This document shows, in pieces, positions 1-31,718 of a DNA stretch of 64,000 bases. The notes beneath the pieces were generated by a model that did not search any database, had not been told where the DNA came from, and saw nothing but the letters and a program-made list of their open reading frames with translations. Source of the stretch: Euzebya pacifica (lineage in GTDB: Bacteria; Actinomycetota; Nitriliruptoria; Euzebyales; Euzebyaceae). Both the position numbers and the translations under genes were made by a program. The DNA lies in the NCBI RefSeq assembly GCF_003344865.1, contig NZ_CP031165.1, positions 2,671,910 to 2,735,909 on the forward strand, read 5' to 3'. Within the stretch, counting starts at the first letter, position 1, and each line of letters opens with the position of its first letter.

Positions 1-639
1 AGCGTCCGGCGGGGCCGCAAGCTGGTCTACACCCAGGAGTACTTGGCGTTCCGAGGCACGTTGGGGATGGGCTCGATCGTGCTGGCCAAGGGCCACCCGG
101 AGCGCAAGGGGGTGGTGGAGCGGGCCAACGGCTACCTGGAAACGAGCTTCATGCCCGGACGCAGCTTCGGCTCGATCGACGACTTCAACACCCAGCTGGG
201 CCTGTGGCTTGAGGACCGGGCCAACGTCAGGGTCCACGCCGGGCTGCGCCAGCGGCCCTCCGAACGCATCGACGCCGACCTGGCCGCGATGCTGCCGCTG
301 CCGCCGGTGCCGCCCGATGTCGATTGGACCCACACCGTCCGGTTGGGCGCCGACCACTGGGTGCGGGTGGACACCAACGACTACTCCGTCCACCCGGGCG
401 CGATCGGCCGCAAGGTCACCATCCGCCGCACCGCCGATCAGGTCGTGGTGACCTGTGGCCGCGACGAGGTCGCCCGCCACGACCGGGTCCTCGCCAAGCA
501 TCAGACCATCACCGACCCGGCCCACGACGCCGCCCGCAAGGCCCGCGCCCAGCTGCTCGAGCTGCCCGTCGCCGGCCCCGACACCGGTGTGGAGCAGCGG
601 GACCTCGCCGACTACGACCGGCTGCTCGGGGTGGCCTGA
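1..639 (+). CDS. istA: IS21-family transposase IstA, 3' part
   Basis: The reading frame is open from the first base, so the 5' part is outside the window; 212 codons remain. It holds the end of the DDE integrase core, with the likely catalytic Glu in a KGVVERANGYLE segment, followed by the basic C-terminal Mu-transposase-like region. IstA cuts and joins the element ends, and in this family IstB acts as its AAA+ helper. The TGA at 637-639 shares its A with the ATG of istB, the usual translational coupling of this pair. No frameshift is visible in the part present, so the element may still be active. Confidence 0.93.
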   Translation, partial: SVRRGRKLVYTQEYLAFRGTLGMGSIVLAKGHPERKGVVERANGYLETSFMPGRSFGSIDDFNTQLGLWLEDRANVRVHAGLRQRPSERIDADLAAMLPLPPVPPDVDWTHTVRLGADHWVRVDTNDYSVHPGAIGRKVTIRRTADQVVVTCGRDEVARHDRVLAKHQTITDPAHDAARKARAQLLELPVAGPDTGVEQRDLADYDRLLGVA

Positions 640-1424
640 TGGCAACCACGCCGGCGTCGGCCACCGACAGCCACCTGGCCTACCTGTGCCGGGCCATGAA
701 GGCCCCGTCCCTCGCGGCGGCCGCCCCGCGGCTGGCCGACCGGGCCCGCGAGGAGGGCTGGACCCACGAGGCGTTCCTCGCCGCGTGCCTTGAGAAAGAA
801 GTCGACGCCCGCGCCGCCCACGGCGGCCAGGCCCGCATCAAAGCCGCGAAGTTCCCGGCCCGCAAGACCCTGGAGGACTTCGACTTCGACCACCAGACCT
901 CCGTCAAGCGCGAATTGATCGGCCATCTCGGCCAGCTCGACTTCGTCGACGCCCGCGCCAACGTGGTGTTCCTCGGCCCGCCCGGCACCGGCAAGACCCA
1001 CCTCTCCATCGCGCTGGGCATCCGCGCCTGCCTGGCCGGTCACCGCGTCGCCTTCGCCACCGCCGCCCAATGGGTCGACCGGCTCGGCGCCGCCCACGCC
1101 GCCGGCCGGCTCCAGGACGAACTCCGCGCCCTCGGCCGCGTCCCCGTCGTGGTCATCGACGAGGTCGGCTACATCCCGTTTGAGGCCGAGGCCGCCAACC
1201 TGTTCTTCCAACTCATCGCCGCCAGATACGAACGCGCCAGCGTGATCATGAGCTCCAACAAGCCATTCAGCCGGTGGGGCGAGGTCTTCGGCGACCCCGT
1301 CGTGGCCGCAGCCATGATCGACCGGCTCGTCCACCACGCCGACGTCGTCCCGCTCAAGGGCGACAGCTACCGCCTCAAGGACCGCGACCTCGGCCGCGTC
1401 CCCGCCGCCGACCCAGCACCATGA
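639..1424 (+). CDS. istB: IS21-family helper ATPase IstB
   Basis: A 261-residue AAA+ ATPase of normal IstB length. The Walker A motif GPPGTGKT is at residues 113-120 and the Walker B motif VVVIDEVGY is about 60 residues later; an SSNKPF sensor-like segment follows. The ATG overlaps the istA stop by one base, which decides the start; the frame is open further upstream only because the DNA is GC-rich. IstB forms an ATP-dependent assembly on DNA that supports target choice and transposition by IstA. The gene is intact. Confidence 0.95.
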   Translation: MATTPASATDSHLAYLCRAMKAPSLAAAAPRLADRAREEGWTHEAFLAACLEKEVDARAAHGGQARIKAAKFPARKTLEDFDFDHQTSVKRELIGHLGQLDFVDARANVVFLGPPGTGKTHLSIALGIRACLAGHRVAFATAAQWVDRLGAAHAAGRLQDELRALGRVPVVVIDEVGYIPFEAEAANLFFQLIAARYERASVIMSSNKPFSRWGEVFGDPVVAAAMIDRLVHHADVVPLKGDSYRLKDRDLGRVPAADPAP

Positions 1425-1431
1425 ACTCCAG

Positions 1432-1485
1432 AGGGGGTCAAGATTCAACCGCTGCAAGGGGGTCAGATTTCGCCCGCTGTTGACA
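1432..1485 (+). repeat. IS21 right terminus with repeated transposase-binding motif
   Basis: Two 23-bp copies starting AGGGGGTCA and ending CCGCTG lie at 1432-1454 and 1457-1479, period 25 bp. They are followed by TGTTGACA ending at 1485. IS21-family ends are known to carry repeated internal copies of the terminal sequence that bind transposase. The left end is not available for comparison. Confidence 0.75.
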
Positions 1486-2001
1486 CTCACCGACTATGCC
1501 CGTGATGCGTCCGATCGAGGGGTGGCCTTCGCCATCAGCTCGGCACTCGGGCTTCGGCTGACGACGCTCGAGGAGATTGCAGCCATCGTGGACGGCCGCG
1601 GTCAGTTTCCGGGCTCGGCACGGATGAGGAGGGTGCTCGCCGATTTCGGTGACGCCGAGTCCCACTCTCGTCGTGAGCGCTCCTTGCGACGAGAGCTGTT
1701 GCGTCTGGGTGTCCCGATCGTCGACGGCAGCCATGACATCCTGGACGAGCGGGGGAGGACCGTCGCGCAGGCTGACGTGGCTGTCCCCGCGGTGCGTCTC
1801 AACGCCGAGGTCGACGGACCGCACCACTTCGCTCCCGCGCAACAGGCCTCCGACAGACGGCGGGACCGCAACCTCAAGGCCATCGACTGGGACGTCGTCC
1901 GCTACCTCTACTACGAGATCGATGAGGACGTGGAGAGGGTCGCCCGGGAGATCGCTGACCTGTATCACCGGCGGCTGCGCGCCCTCCAGCAGGCCGCCTG
2001 A
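1486..2001 (+). pseudogene. DUF559-type endonuclease-like protein, 5' part removed by the IS
   Basis: The frame reads about 170 residues of a typical actinobacterial AbiEi/DUF559-type protein. It starts mid-protein at LTDYARDASDRG, the linker after the winged-helix region, and continues into the restriction-endonuclease-like fold (AQADVAVPAVRLNAEVDGPHH, then RDRNLKAIDWDVVRYLY). Full-length relatives are near 280-300 residues, so the N-terminal 40% is missing. Sequence before 1486 is IS DNA. A TTG at 1480 inside the IS end could start translation of the remnant. Most likely a dead gene, unless the remainder lies in frame on the far side of the IS. Confidence 0.75.
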
Positions 2002-2023: not shown

Positions 2024-2287
2024 GGATCGCGCTGGTCATCGCGTATGGGCGACGCAGCCCCCGATCGCGCCAGCTGACGGACGCCACGGCTGAGCGGATC
2101 GTGCCGGTCATCGCGTATGGGCGACGCAGGCCCCGATCACGCCAGCTGACGGACACCGGGGCTGAGCGGATCGCGCTGGTCATCGCGTATGGGCGACGTA
2201 GGCCCCGATCGCGCCAGCTGACGGACAACGCGGCTGAGCGGATCGTGCCGGGCATCGCGTATGGGCGACGTGGGCCCCGATCGCGCC
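2024..2287. repeat. 72-bp tandem repeat of an extended palindrome, 3.7 copies
   Basis: Units start at 2024, 2096, 2168 and 2240 (the last partial), spaced exactly 72 bp. Each has a left arm like GGATCGTGCCGG, a central self-complementary part CATCGC / GCGACG around TATGG, and a right arm GGCCCCGATCGCGCC. The two outer arms are complementary (GATCG-GCC against GGCCCCGATC), so each unit can form one long hairpin. Related copies lie at 29581-29709. Several frames are open only because 72 is a multiple of three; I do not call a gene here. This stretch fills most of the gap between 2001 and 2370. Confidence 0.9.
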
Positions 2288-2801: not shown

Positions 2802-4592
2802 ATGACCACGTCCAACCTGCGAAGGCTGCTTGCCGCCCTCGCCCTGAGCGCGCTGGTACTTGCCGGCTGCTCCAGCTCCGACGAGGGTGACACCGCCGAG
2901 GACACCACCGAGGACACGGGCGCCGAGGCCACCGACGAGGAGGCCACCGACGAGGAGGCCACCGACGAGGAGGCCACCGACGAGGAAGAGCCCGCCGACG
3001 AAGAGCCGACCGACGAGGGTGACGAGGCCGCTTCCGGCGACCGCGTGTCCACCTACATCGGCCAGCCCGAGAGCCTGACCCCCACCAACAACACCGAGTC
3101 CGAGGGCAACGCTGTCCTCTCGGCGCTGTTCACCACCCTGATCGAGTACGACTCGGAGAACAACTACGAGCCGGTCATGGCGAACGCCGCGTCGATCGAG
3201 ACCGAGGACAACCAGACCTACGTCGTCACCCTGAACGAGGGCTGGACCTTCCACGACGGCACGCCGGTCACCGCTGAGTCCTACGTCAACGCGTGGAACT
3301 ACGCTGCCTACGCCCCCAACGCGCAGTCGGTCGCTGGTTTCTTCCTGCCGATCGCTGGCTACGAGGACATGCAGTGCGGCACCACCACCGACGCCGATGG
3401 TGAAGAGGTCGCTGACTGTGACACCGCTCCGCCGGCTGCCGACACCCTCTCCGGCCTGACCGTGGACTCCGAGACGCAGTTCACCATCACGCTGACCGAG
3501 GCCGAGCCCTTCTTCATCACCCGTCTGGGCTACCCGGCCTACGCGCCGCTGCCCGAGTCGTTCTACGACGACCCCGCCGCCTTCGACCGCGCCCCCATCG
3601 GCAACGGTCCCTTCATGATGGCTGGTGAGTGGGAGGACGACGTCGTCATCAACACCGACGCCTACCCGGACTACCAGGGCACCCCTGCCCAGATCCCCGG
3701 CATCGAGTTCCGCATCTACGCCGACGTCAACACCGCCGTGACCGACCTGGTCGCCGGCAACCTCGACATCGTCGACGCCGTGCCGCCGGAGCAGTGGGAG
3801 AGCACCATCAGCCAGGTCCCGAACAGCGACCTGTCCCCCTCCTCCTCCATCAACTACATCGGCTTCCCGAACTACGCTCCGCCGTTCGACGACGCGACGC
3901 TCCGCGCCGCCCTGTCGATGGCCATCGACCGTGAGGCCATCACCGAGGGCATCTTCGGTGGCCTGCGTCAGCCGGCCAACAACATCCTTGCTCCGGTGAT
4001 CCCGGGCTACGAGGACGTTGTCTGCGACGAGTGGACCTTCAACCCCGAGCTCGCTGCCGAGCGCTTCGAGGAGTTCGGTGGCGTCGAGGCCCTGGGCGAC
4101 TCGATCGAGATCTGGTTCAACGAGGGCGGCGGCCACGACCTGTGGATGGACGCAGTCATCACCCAGTGGGAGCAGAACCTGGGCATCCCCGCGTCCAGCG
4201 TCACCTTCCAGCAGCTGCCGTTCGCGGAGTACCTGGAGCTCGCTGACACCCAGCAGCTGACCGGTCCGTTCCGCCTCGGCTGGGGCATGGACTACCCGCA
4301 CCCGCAGAACTACCTGCAGATCCTGCTGGAGCTCACCGCTCCCGAGGGCGGCAACAACGCCACCTTCTGGACCAACGACGAGTACTCCAGCCTGGTTGCC
4401 GAGGCGCTCGCCGTCCCGGACGTCGAGGAGTCCCTCCCGACCTGGCAGGAGGCCAACGCGGTCGCCTGTTCCGAGGCTCCTGTTGCCCCGATGTTCTACG
4501 GGCAGAACAGCTACGCCTGGAACGACACCGTGAGCAACGTGTCCGTCGACGCGTTCTCCAACCTGGACTACACGGCCCTGACCCTGGGCTAG
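2802..4592 (+). CDS. Oligopeptide ABC transporter, substrate-binding lipoprotein
   Basis: A 596-residue extracytoplasmic binding protein of the family-5 (peptide/nickel/dipeptide) type. It has a signal peptide with lipobox LAGC at residues 20-23, so Cys23 should be lipidated and anchor the protein outside the membrane. Residues about 25-78 form an extremely acidic Asp/Glu/Thr spacer with repeated TDEEA units. The family-5 core follows (for example GWTFHDGTPVTAESYVNAWN). It is the first gene of a five-gene importer with two permeases and two ATPases downstream, and is separated from them by a strong hairpin. The substrate is inferred to be short peptides; nickel or other ligands cannot be excluded. 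Confidence 0.95.
   Translation: MTTSNLRRLLAALALSALVLAGCSSSDEGDTAEDTTEDTGAEATDEEATDEEATDEEATDEEEPADEEPTDEGDEAASGDRVSTYIGQPESLTPTNNTESEGNAVLSALFTTLIEYDSENNYEPVMANAASIETEDNQTYVVTLNEGWTFHDGTPVTAESYVNAWNYAAYAPNAQSVAGFFLPIAGYEDMQCGTTTDADGEEVADCDTAPPAADTLSGLTVDSETQFTITLTEAEPFFITRLGYPAYAPLPESFYDDPAAFDRAPIGNGPFMMAGEWEDDVVINTDAYPDYQGTPAQIPGIEFRIYADVNTAVTDLVAGNLDIVDAVPPEQWESTISQVPNSDLSPSSSINYIGFPNYAPPFDDATLRAALSMAIDREAITEGIFGGLRQPANNILAPVIPGYEDVVCDEWTFNPELAAERFEEFGGVEALGDSIEIWFNEGGGHDLWMDAVITQWEQNLGIPASSVTFQQLPFAEYLELADTQQLTGPFRLGWGMDYPHPQNYLQILLELTAPEGGNNATFWTNDEYSSLVAEALAVPDVEESLPTWQEANAVACSEAPVAPMFYGQNSYAWNDTVSNVSVDAFSNLDYTALTLG
2925..2984 (+). repeat. 15-bp coding tandem repeat, four identical copies
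   Basis: GAGGCCACCGACGAG is repeated four times without change at 2925, 2940, 2955 and 2970. It encodes the EATDE part of the acidic spacer of the lipoprotein. Perfect copies of a codon-multiple unit suggest that the spacer length can change by slippage without breaking the frame. Confidence 0.9.
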
Positions 4593-28830: not shown

Positions 28831-29493
28831 ATGGCCGACCTGCCCCTGATCCTCGACCTGGCCGCCGAACACGTGCCGGCCACCCTGCTGCGGCAGCAGC
28901 GGCTGGCTCGCCTCGTGGGTGACGAGGTCGGCGAGCTCGACCTCGAGGCCGGCCTGGCGCGCTTCGGGTCCGAGATGCAGTTCGCCGCCCAGCTCGTCGG
29001 CGCGACCGACGAGGTGGCCGACACGTTCACGTGGGCCTGGGCCGCCCAGGAGGGGTCGTTCGATCGCGGCCTCGTGAGCGGTGTCACCGCGCTGCGCGAC
29101 TACGGCGTGGCCAACGGCGTGGACGAGCTGTCGGAGGCGGTCTGGTCGGTGCTGGACGTCGATCCGTTCCTGCTGGCTGCCATCGCCCGCGGCTGGACCC
29201 AGGCGTCGGCGATGTACCGCTTCCCCTACTTCGAGGGCGCCATGTACGCCCTGCTGGGCGACGTGCCGCTGCCGCCGGTCCAGGCACAGGAGTTCGTCCA
29301 GGCGCTGACCACAGGGGTGGCCATGGCGCCGATGGACCACCGGGTCGCCACGGTCGCGTTGTGCCGTGATGCCGGCCTGTCGACCACCGGCCTCGACGAG
29401 ATCGTCGTCGCCACCATCGGGACGACCGCGGTGACCGTGGCCTTCACCCGCGACGGCCGCATCGACGGCGTCGACATCACCGGCGTCCGCTGA
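28831..29493 (+). CDS. DUF6882-like protein
   Basis: A 220-residue soluble protein resembling the DUF6882 family: GELDLEAGLARFGSEMQFAAQLVGATDEVADTFTWAWA is close to the family pattern with its TWLWAW core. There is no signal peptide or catalytic motif. The gene begins four bases after the guaB1 stop with a GGTGAG site overlapping that stop, so it is co-transcribed. A link to purine metabolism is only suggested by position. Confidence 0.75.
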   Translation: MADLPLILDLAAEHVPATLLRQQRLARLVGDEVGELDLEAGLARFGSEMQFAAQLVGATDEVADTFTWAWAAQEGSFDRGLVSGVTALRDYGVANGVDELSEAVWSVLDVDPFLLAAIARGWTQASAMYRFPYFEGAMYALLGDVPLPPVQAQEFVQALTTGVAMAPMDHRVATVALCRDAGLSTTGLDEIVVATIGTTAVTVAFTRDGRIDGVDITGVR

Positions 29494-29580
29494 GGACCGC
29501 CGAACGACGCCGACCGGAATCCCAGCGGCTCGACCGGCCGGCGTGATGGTCGGGCCGGCCGGCTGACGGTGAATTCCGAC

Positions 29581-29709
29581 GCGATCGGGGCCCTGACCAC
29601 CCATGGGTGGGTTCAGGCACGATTCGGGCCGGGACCGGGTAGTCGGGCCGGGTGGTCGGCGGCGCGATCGGGGCCCTGACCACCCATGGGTGGGTTCCGG
29701 CACGATTCG
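29581..29709. repeat. Two dispersed copies of a 46-bp palindromic repeat
   Basis: Copies at 29581-29626 and 29664-29709 agree at 45 of 46 positions and are 83 bp apart. Each contains the perfect 14-bp palindrome CCACCCATGGGTGG, the left arm GCGATCGGGGCCC and the right arm GCACGATTCG. Read on the minus strand they align without gaps to the 72-bp units at 2024-2287. They fill the gap between convergent genes at 29493 and 29742. Confidence 0.9.
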
Positions 29710-29741
29710 TGTCGTCCGGTCGACGCCCAGCCAGGGCGCTG

Positions 29742-31718
29742 TCAGCCATTCGGCCCCGACTGGAACTCCGGCAGGTCGATGTCGTCGGCCGGGTCGAACC
29801 CCAGGACGTGCCCGTAGAAGGCCAACCGCGCCTCGAGGGAACGGGTGATGTTGGCGGCCTTGCGGAAGCCGTGCTGCTCGCCCTCGAACAGGATGTAGGC
29901 GTGGGGGATGCCCCGTCGCCGCAGCGCGGCGACGATCAGCTCGGCCTGCGCCGGGGGGACGACTGCGTCCTCGTCGCCCTGCAGCACGATCATCGGGGTG
30001 GACAGGGACTCGACGTGGGTGATGGGGGAGCGGTCGACGTACACCTGCTCGTCCTCGGGCCAGGGACCGACCATGGAGTCGAGGTAGCGCGACTCGAACT
30101 TGTGGGTGTCGGTGGCGAGGGCACGCAGGTCGGCCACGCCGAAGAGGCTGCCGCCGGCGGCGAACGTGTCGGTGGTGCACAGGGCCAGCAGCGTCGTGTA
30201 GCCACCCGCGCTGCCGCCCTCGATGATCAGGCGGTCCGGGTCGGCGAGTCCCTGCGCGACCAGGTGGCGGGTTGCGGCGATGGTGTCGGCAACGTCGTGG
30301 ATGCCCCAGCTGCCGCGCAGCGCATCCCGGTAGGCCCGGCCGTAGCCGACCGAGCCGCGGTAGTTGACGTCGACCACCGCGAAGCCGCGTGAGGTCCAGT
30401 ACTGCGCGGTGCCGTTGACGGTCGTCCGTGCGGCGCTGGTCGGCCCGCCGTGGGTCAGCACCACCAGCGGCGGTCGTTCGTCGTCGGGACCGACATGGGT
30501 GACGCTGGTCGGCGGGTAGTACAGCCCGTGGGCCACGGCATCGTCGGCGGTCGGGAAGGTCATGTGCTCGGGCACGGCGCCGATCTCGGCGGCCGCGTCC
30601 TCGCGAGTGGCGCTCAGGCGGGTGGCCCGTCCCGTGGTCGGATCGACCCGCAGGACACCGGTCGGCAAGGCGGGGCCGCCAGCGATCATCGCCAGGTCCG
30701 ACCCCACGGTCGCCAACGAGCCGACGAGACCGACCCCGTCGATCTCCAGGGCGACCCCGCCGCCCGCGCCGTCGAGTCGTCGGGCATGGGCGTAGCCGTC
30801 GGACAGCGTCTGGACGTGGACCGCACCGTCGACGACGGCAAGCTGGCCGATGCCGTGCACCCAGCGAGGTGCCCCGCTGTCGACCGCTTCGTCCTGCAGG
30901 CGCTGCGTGCTCCCGTTGGCCCAGGCGAAGACGTTCCACCAGCCGTCCGGGTCGTCACTGAACAGCAGCCGATCGCCGTCCCACAGCGCATCAGCCACGG
31001 CGCTGCCGTCCCCACCGGCGACGTGTCGAGCCTCGCCGAGGGAGGGCGACTCGCCGAGGCGCAGGTCCGCGACCCACAGGGCCGCGCTGTCCCACGGCAT
31101 GTCCGGGTGGTCCCACTGCAGCCAGGCCATCCGCGTGCCGTCGGCGTCGACGAACGGCCCGCCGACGAAGTCCGGGCCGGTGACCAGGACGGTGCACTCG
31201 CCCGACGCGAGGTCGACGTGCACGATCTCGTTGACCGCCTCCTCCGTCCCGTGGACGTTGACGTTGCCCCGGGGCCGGTCGGGACCGTGCGTCTCGCGGA
31301 TCGCCACGAACCCCTCGCCACCCGGGAGGACCGTCATCTGGGCCCAGCGGATACCCGCAGCGGTCGACGGTTCGGGGGTCACCGGGGTCGCGGCCCCGTC
31401 GACGATGCGGTGGACGCGCTGGTCGTCCCAGCTGCAGGCCAGCACCACGCCGTGGCCGGCGCCGAGCGCCCCGCCGCCGTACTCGCCGACCCTCGTGCGG
31501 GCGTTGAACCCGACGGGGGAGAGGACCTCGGGACCGTCCGCCCCCGCACGGACGACGGCGACGCGCCCGCCGTCGGTCGGGTCGCTCTGCAGCCACAGGA
31601 CGTCGGCACCGTCCACGACGAGGTCGTTGTAGCCGACGGACGCCGCTGCCAGGTCGGCAGCGGACAGCGGGGACGGCCAGGTGCCGTACGGGGCGACGAT
31701 GCGGTCGGGGTCGGACAC
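29742..31718 (-). CDS. S9 family peptidase, prolyl-oligopeptidase-like
   Basis: A 658-residue serine peptidase. The N-terminal 400 residues form a beta-propeller; the C-terminal alpha/beta-hydrolase domain has the nucleophile Ser503 in GGSAGGY, the acid Asp584 in QGDEDAVVPP and His616 in EGEQHGF. No signal peptide is present, so it probably acts in the cytoplasm on short peptides. The order of motifs fits the acylaminoacyl-peptidase/DPP branch. GTG 31718 is preceded by GAGGAGGAA and a TAGGGT -10 element at 31756-31751. A link with the peptide importer at 2.8-8.8 kb is possible but not shown. Confidence 0.92.
   Translation of the reverse strand: MSDPDRIVAPYGTWPSPLSAADLAAASVGYNDLVVDGADVLWLQSDPTDGGRVAVVRAGADGPEVLSPVGFNARTRVGEYGGGALGAGHGVVLACSWDDQRVHRIVDGAATPVTPEPSTAAGIRWAQMTVLPGGEGFVAIRETHGPDRPRGNVNVHGTEEAVNEIVHVDLASGECTVLVTGPDFVGGPFVDADGTRMAWLQWDHPDMPWDSAALWVADLRLGESPSLGEARHVAGGDGSAVADALWDGDRLLFSDDPDGWWNVFAWANGSTQRLQDEAVDSGAPRWVHGIGQLAVVDGAVHVQTLSDGYAHARRLDGAGGGVALEIDGVGLVGSLATVGSDLAMIAGGPALPTGVLRVDPTTGRATRLSATREDAAAEIGAVPEHMTFPTADDAVAHGLYYPPTSVTHVGPDDERPPLVVLTHGGPTSAARTTVNGTAQYWTSRGFAVVDVNYRGSVGYGRAYRDALRGSWGIHDVADTIAATRHLVAQGLADPDRLIIEGGSAGGYTTLLALCTTDTFAAGGSLFGVADLRALATDTHKFESRYLDSMVGPWPEDEQVYVDRSPITHVESLSTPMIVLQGDEDAVVPPAQAELIVAALRRRGIPHAYILFEGEQHGFRKAANITRSLEARLAFYGHVLGFDPADDIDLPEFQSGPNG

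Follow-up and report, generated by a model that had tools for sequence, protein, structure and literature searches.

Palindromic repeats of the REP/REPIN type with their RAYT transposases (REPtrons), the AbiE type IV toxin-antitoxin systems and the Vsr-type homing endonucleases, in which a Vsr-like nuclease is linked to selfish DNA, are the described systems closest to the locus analysed here. Species that carry several REP families have repeat-specific partner genes, as stated in the available text of PMC3733652, and REP-like repeats devoid of a RAYT have had no partner enzyme, which the same text says of the CGTC-tagged REPs. AbiEi proteins autoregulate by binding inverted repeats, as described for Streptococcus and M. 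tuberculosis in the available part of PMC7319586, and PMC12907096, in its accessible portion, presents a Caulobacter DUF559 protein as a Vsr-like endonuclease of the PD-(D/E)XK type on which a DNA damage response depends. In the open-access literature, no paper linking DUF559 to palindromic repeats was found by title or abstract start, nor any paper on Euzebya repeats by title.

The Euzebya pacifica window (i.e. the whole stretch of 64,000 nucleotides analysed) holds copies of a palindromic repeat at 2 kb and at 29.6 kb. We assessed the distribution of this repeat in the genome of the window (G000), in the other three congeners (G001, G002 and G003) and in more distant genomes. The repeats are associated with a gene encoding an AbiEi-DUF559 protein, and we propose that a putative PD-(D/E)XK-type nuclease serves REP-like repeats here instead of a HUH transposase.

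Layout and distribution of the repeat family

The element is 42 nt long and consists of two ends, GATCGTGCC and GGCCCCGATC (consensus, by eye), with a 23-nt core between them. At 29.6 kb, two copies lie 83 nt apart and share 93 % identity over 55 nt; the four units at 2 kb follow one another at 72-nt spacing and align to them without gaps, which confirms the original prediction that both loci belong to one family. The coordinates of all features are collected in the table below.

Table. Palindromic elements and associated genes (positions in the window unless a locus is named)
Feature	Position	Strand	Evidence or remark
IS21-type transposase, C-terminal part (1-639), and IstB (639-1424), within the nuclease gene	1..1424	+	PF22483, PF01695
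C-terminal part of AbiEi-DUF559 gene	1483..2001	+	tblastn with intact congener protein, 87 % identity over 172 aa; PF04480, E 1.4e-6
Element, unit 1 of array 3' of DUF559 gene remnant	2025..2066	+	40.6 bits
Element, unit 2 of same 2-kb array	2097..2138	+	64.9 bits
Element, unit 3 of 2-kb array	2169..2210	+	51.5 bits
Element, unit 4 of 2-kb array	2241..2282	+	60.5 bits
DUF6882 gene, left neighbour of 29.6 kb copies, convergent pair	28831..29493	+	
42-nt palindromic element, copy 1	29583..29624	-	covariance-model score 54.6 bits, E 3.7e-9
42-nt palindromic element, copy 2	29666..29707	-	covariance-model score 59.0 bits, E 4.1e-10
Peptidase S9 gene, right neighbour of 29.6 kb copies, convergent pair	29742..31718	-	
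N-terminal part of split gene	L055:6144-6521		outside window
Upstream inverted array	L055:5942-6055		outside window

Known element types were also considered. No Rfam RNA family scored over its gathering threshold, the sole match in the window being a tRNA, and an intrinsic terminator was rejected, as positions 29000-30500 hold no G+C-rich hairpin followed by a U-tract; a promoter and terminator scan of the same interval returned nothing. Short-period repeats were observed at 2878-2995, in the N-terminal coding region of a gene called at 2802-4592.

A search of the G000 genome with the two conserved ends and a free gap of 15-31 nt gave 50 matches, 46 of them exactly 42 nt long, and none in the reversed control. 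The model-based genome scan that had been suggested along with the prediction likewise recovered many further copies: covariance model R1 found 56 at 37 bits or more, dispersed over the chromosome. All 56 lie on the 5.80-Mb contig (p 0.005 by copies, 0.04 by clusters), and the second contig (571,580 bp) contains no strong family element according to R1. By eye, the strands of the genome-wide copies are balanced. Among 61 related genomes, the family was found in the four congeners only (63, 50, 49 and 19 matches per genome), with the exception of one weak match in the other 57.

Placement was assessed against genes called with a simple codon-usage script. Convergent intergenic regions account for 29 of the 66 regions with elements versus 38 of 348 in the background (p 2e-9), and divergent ones are depleted (6/66 versus 140/348), the 66 regions including orthologous loci of several species and the list including seven weak G000 candidates. 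Within tandem regions, 23 of 31 element groups are antisense to the genes (p 0.011, with each orthologous locus counted on its own), and 12 of 14 are so in G000 alone (p 0.013). Sixteen of the 112 copies scoring at least 36 bits lie mainly within called genes. In two species, a pair of elements with 72-nt spacing sits at the same position of one and the same called gene (L077:5945-6058 and L088:5949-6062), with a core type that differs between the species and is identical within each.

Many element positions are common to G000 and G002, which suggests that movement is slow. The 29.6 kb site is empty in G002, where 13 nt separate the aligned blocks versus about 250 nt here, the whole intergenic stretch being different. 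No clean insertion or empty site defining a mobile unit was found in these comparisons, the others showing larger indels, degenerate remnants or no alignment.

Pairing, covariation and exchange of cores

The original prediction held that the ends are conserved and that the core changes in sequence while keeping its pairing. Both points are borne out by an alignment of 47 42-mers (45 end-pattern matches plus the two 29.6 kb copies, one identical duplicate and four matches of other length being excluded), in which the invariance of the ends is partly imposed by the search pattern: 46 inner-stem cells are changed on both sides and still paired, versus 22.7 +/- 3.6 in shuffled alignments, and none of 500 shuffles reached 46. 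The covariation statistics that had been called for remain strong with 137 copies from four species (119 distinct), i.e. 142 double-changed paired cells versus 70.4 +/- 5.8, and the score falls every time when partner columns are shifted by 1-3 positions. In G001, the copies share one hairpin; a single pair in it occurs in several Watson-Crick forms, the adjacent pairs being fixed. In single-strand folding, the window copies do only modestly better than shuffled sequences (z of -2.5 and -0.9 for the 29.6 kb copies, -0.7 and 0.1 for two 2-kb units); the argument for structure is one from covariation and not from folding energy.

Comparison of orthologous positions between G000 and G002 gave insight into how cores change. 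Of 27 pairs made, one was dropped for weak flanks, pairing within arrays being ambiguous; over the remaining 26, identity amounts to 97 % in the ends, 81 % in the flanks and 59 % in the cores. The core type is kept at 16 of these positions and switched as a block at the other 10 (6-10 of 23 nucleotides identical). Forty-one inner-stem pairs of G000 have both partners altered in G002, and 29 of these still pair there. Tandem units at one locus are often identical or nearly so. Given the contrast in identity and the block switches, we infer that the ends act as a sequence-specific site, whereas in the cores it is the pairing that is maintained, with exchange or correction affecting a core as a whole. 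Block change of the core at orthologous sites also means that exchange between copies contributes to covariation, and selection on structure is therefore not its sole possible cause. As to the suggestion that the structure is recognised by a protein, such recognition is probable.

The flanked nuclease gene and its relatives

In all four congeners, one DUF559 gene has inverted element arrays on either side, and in each of them the locus lies between a Glycos_transf_3 and an AsnC_trans_reg gene; an AbiEii nucleotidyltransferase is not among these immediate neighbours. The gene is intact in G001, G002 and G003 (293-300 codons), with the arrays on both sides oriented outward. Around the G003 gene, the elements belong to a divergent variant, to which R1 gives low scores (19-25 bits). 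In G000, the 2-kb array (2025-2282) is the downstream flanking array of the gene, which an IS21-type element (window 1-1424 and L055:6522-8712) splits in this genome only, the congener copies being free of it. The G001 nuclease gene (L257:1456-2358) is inverted relative to its conserved neighbours, as expected from recombination between inverted arrays. When 938 called genes were surveyed, two had elements within 400 nt on both sides, one being the partner gene (in G002) and the other a small G000 gene; this set comprises selected stretches and the window, the split G000 gene is not one gene in it, and the G001 and G003 nuclease loci fall outside it.

PADLOC AbiEi profiles match the protein over residues 5-165 approximately, and PF04480 (DUF559) matches its C-terminus over the curated cut-off. 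Solved nucleases (3hrl, 4oky and 4oq2) give weak sequence matches only (E 0.004-0.009). The original prediction had pointed to a RAYT transposase. This idea was not upheld: PF01797 gave no match in the window's own genome or in the three congeners (0/4), the same search being positive in 5 of 14 control genomes, and the repeat-linked gene encodes an AbiEi-DUF559 nuclease.

We further asked how far the repeat type follows the nuclease. For dispersed copies, the nearest core was that of a copy flanking the genome's own nuclease gene in 22 of 22 cases examined in G001 and 11 of 11 in G003, versus 21 of 37 in G002 and 13.5 of 49 in G000 (ties shared). Many dispersed G000 copies are of a second core type, 29 of the 49 being nearer to the G003 type. 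Sequence variation among the G001 copies is slight (mean identity 93.7 %; 22 copies, 12 of them distinct).

G002 carries a second DUF559 gene, 37 % identical to the partner protein and with a different palindrome on both sides (second family, L251:570-695 and 1810-1935). The strongest test was a search of six genomes with model R2, built solely from the four copies flanking this paralog, because it predicted a dispersed family from the flanks of a gene. R2 matched 34 distinct positions at 18 loci in G002 and nine positions at six loci in G000; of the remaining genomes, G004 had one match (E 2e-4) and G001 a single borderline one (E 0.04), with none in G003 or G006. All 18 close pairs in this family are spaced 82 nt apart. 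No counterpart of the G002 paralog was found among four G000 protein matches.

Relatives of the partner protein (E 1e-10 or better) are present in 44 of 66 genomes of the class, the four congeners included. In the class sample outside the genus, 8 of 19 DUF559 genes have an inverted flank pair scoring above all 171 control genes (maximum 20), as determined with 500-nt flanks, the targets being delimited by their profile matches and the controls by called gene ends trimmed by 60 nt. The arms of these eight fold as hairpins, less clearly in one downstream arm (L289) and in a composite pair (L290); L296-L298 (scores 17-19) were left uncounted, their arms being no clear hairpins, and L306 was excluded from both comparisons, being near a contig end. 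A variant with called gene ends and 400-nt flanks again placed 8 of 19 above all 172 controls (maximum 15), the set being partly different: L307, L296, L297 and L298 entered, and L288, L292, L293 and L294 dropped out, the called ends of the latter genes not coinciding with the ends of the profile match. An initial control, which combined flanks taken from separate loci and gave one pair a score of 110.5, was replaced by control genes from the same stretches. Outside the class, in a sample of the phylum, 5 of 17 DUF559 genes scored above 20 versus none of 158 controls (maximum 17.5), two further targets (17.5 and 16.5) being left uncounted; inverted hairpins stand on both sides of the DUF559 genes at L323, L324, L331, L338 and L339, outside the class. 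Shuffled flanks agree with the control-gene result. An inverted pair above controls is absent for 11 of the 19 genes within the class and for 12 of the 17 outside it.

The hairpins around different genes differ in sequence. G017 holds nine further occurrences of its hairpin in addition to the two at the gene. A search of G024 with its own hairpin returned the query only and missed even the known downstream copy, so that this result carries little weight.

A candidate mechanism and its alternatives

Our interpretation, which we consider probable, is that a REP-like 42-nt family has one chromosomal AbiEi-DUF559 gene as its partner, the product of which would bind and cut the elements. By analogy with AbiEi, the N-terminal domain would be a DNA-binding module reading the conserved ends. 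Once the protein has bound the ends, the palindrome would be extruded as a hairpin or cruciform, and the DUF559 domain, of the Vsr/PD-(D/E)XK kind, could nick or cut it. Repair would then copy the element to new, mostly intergenic sites and might also homogenise or exchange cores among copies. Binding, cutting and the moving or maintaining of repeats by the protein are thus the presumed part of the scheme; the association of the repeats with the gene is observed. The scheme is weakest at three points: no clean insertion was found, flanking hairpins could not be detected at many DUF559 genes, and the G000 copies give a mixed result.

The covariation could also be mutational and not selected, arising from template-switch correction of quasi-palindromes together with core exchange between tandem and dispersed copies. 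This explanation, which we regard as rather unlikely, draws on the block switches at orthologous cores between conserved ends and flanks and on the near-identity of tandem units; against it, unpaired asymmetric outer-stem positions (T or C opposite CC) stay uncorrected in 47 of 47 aligned copies, the ends being partly fixed by the pattern, and the single variable pair of G001 varies among Watson-Crick forms between fixed neighbours. Moreover, it would account for the covariation and not for the nuclease link, and it is compatible with the nuclease-partner interpretation. The placement of the elements bears on two other readings. If they were bidirectional terminators or RNA hairpins of 3' ends that spread through ordinary recombination and, around the nuclease gene, serve as insulators only, their enrichment in convergent and depletion in divergent regions would be explained, as would the mostly opposite orientation of element groups in tandem regions (23/31). 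We judge this to be unlikely: the U-tract terminator was not found in 29000-30500, terminator function needs no long conserved ends, some copies (16/112) lie mainly inside called genes, and neither the repeat type that follows the adjacent nuclease nor the palindromes around unrelated DUF559 genes are explained.

Operators, through which an AbiEi-type protein would regulate itself and distant genes while its nuclease domain acts elsewhere, are more doubtful still. The AbiEi-like N-terminal domain fits this idea, as does the binding of inverted repeats by the known AbiEi proteins of Streptococcus and M. tuberculosis (available part of PMC7319586); because such proteins autoregulate at inverted repeats, copies upstream of the gene are explicable without mobility. 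However, the downstream side of the gene has copies too, and the dispersed copies are depleted in divergent promoter regions, the places where operators are expected. Least probable are classical REPs mobilised by a RAYT that has since been lost. Size, palindromy, extragenic bias and tandem arrays are indeed REP-like, but PF01797 has no match in the four congeners, the near-identical G001 copies suggest recent spread, and another nuclease gene sits at the position expected for the RAYT. Returning to the nuclease-partner interpretation, terminator or operator functions may exist in addition to it.

These data suggest that actinobacteria have a type of nuclease-linked repeat that had not been recognised before. 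Whether the system is a widespread, independently evolved counterpart of REP/RAYT is evenly balanced in our view; AbiEi-DUF559 nucleases would then recognise, spread and keep their own hairpin families, repeat and nuclease would co-diversify with replaceable cores, and the chemistry would be of the PD-(D/E)XK and not of the HUH type. If true, a repeat-specific flanking nuclease of another superfamily would be, for actinobacteria, the partner enzyme that RAYT-less REP-like repeats have had to do without. A large DUF559 subfamily, whose members are at present annotated as unknown or antitoxin-like, would also gain a candidate function, and the co-evolution of a nuclease and a short DNA hairpin would gain a testable model.

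Among known systems, the CGTC-tagged REPs resemble the family in being REP-like palindromes with no RAYT flanked by them; they are said, in the available text of PMC3733652, to have no dedicated flanking transposase, whereas a nuclease gene flanks the repeats here and the ends are not CGTC. The likeness to AbiE lies in the N-terminal half of the protein, which matches AbiEi profiles, and in the binding of inverted repeats by AbiEi (available part of PMC7319586); the difference is that a nuclease domain is fused here and that the sites are dispersed over the chromosome. Vsr-type homing endonucleases differ in that no intron or intein was seen here and the repeats are short palindromes. From REPtrons, the locus is set apart by its partner, an AbiEi-DUF559 protein and not an HUH Y1 transposase (PF01797), and by its ends, GTAG being absent at the foot of the stem. 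It nevertheless shares with them short imperfect palindromes with conserved ends, both dispersed and arrayed, mostly extragenic and present in tens of copies, and the inversion of these repeats on both sides of a nuclease-encoding gene.
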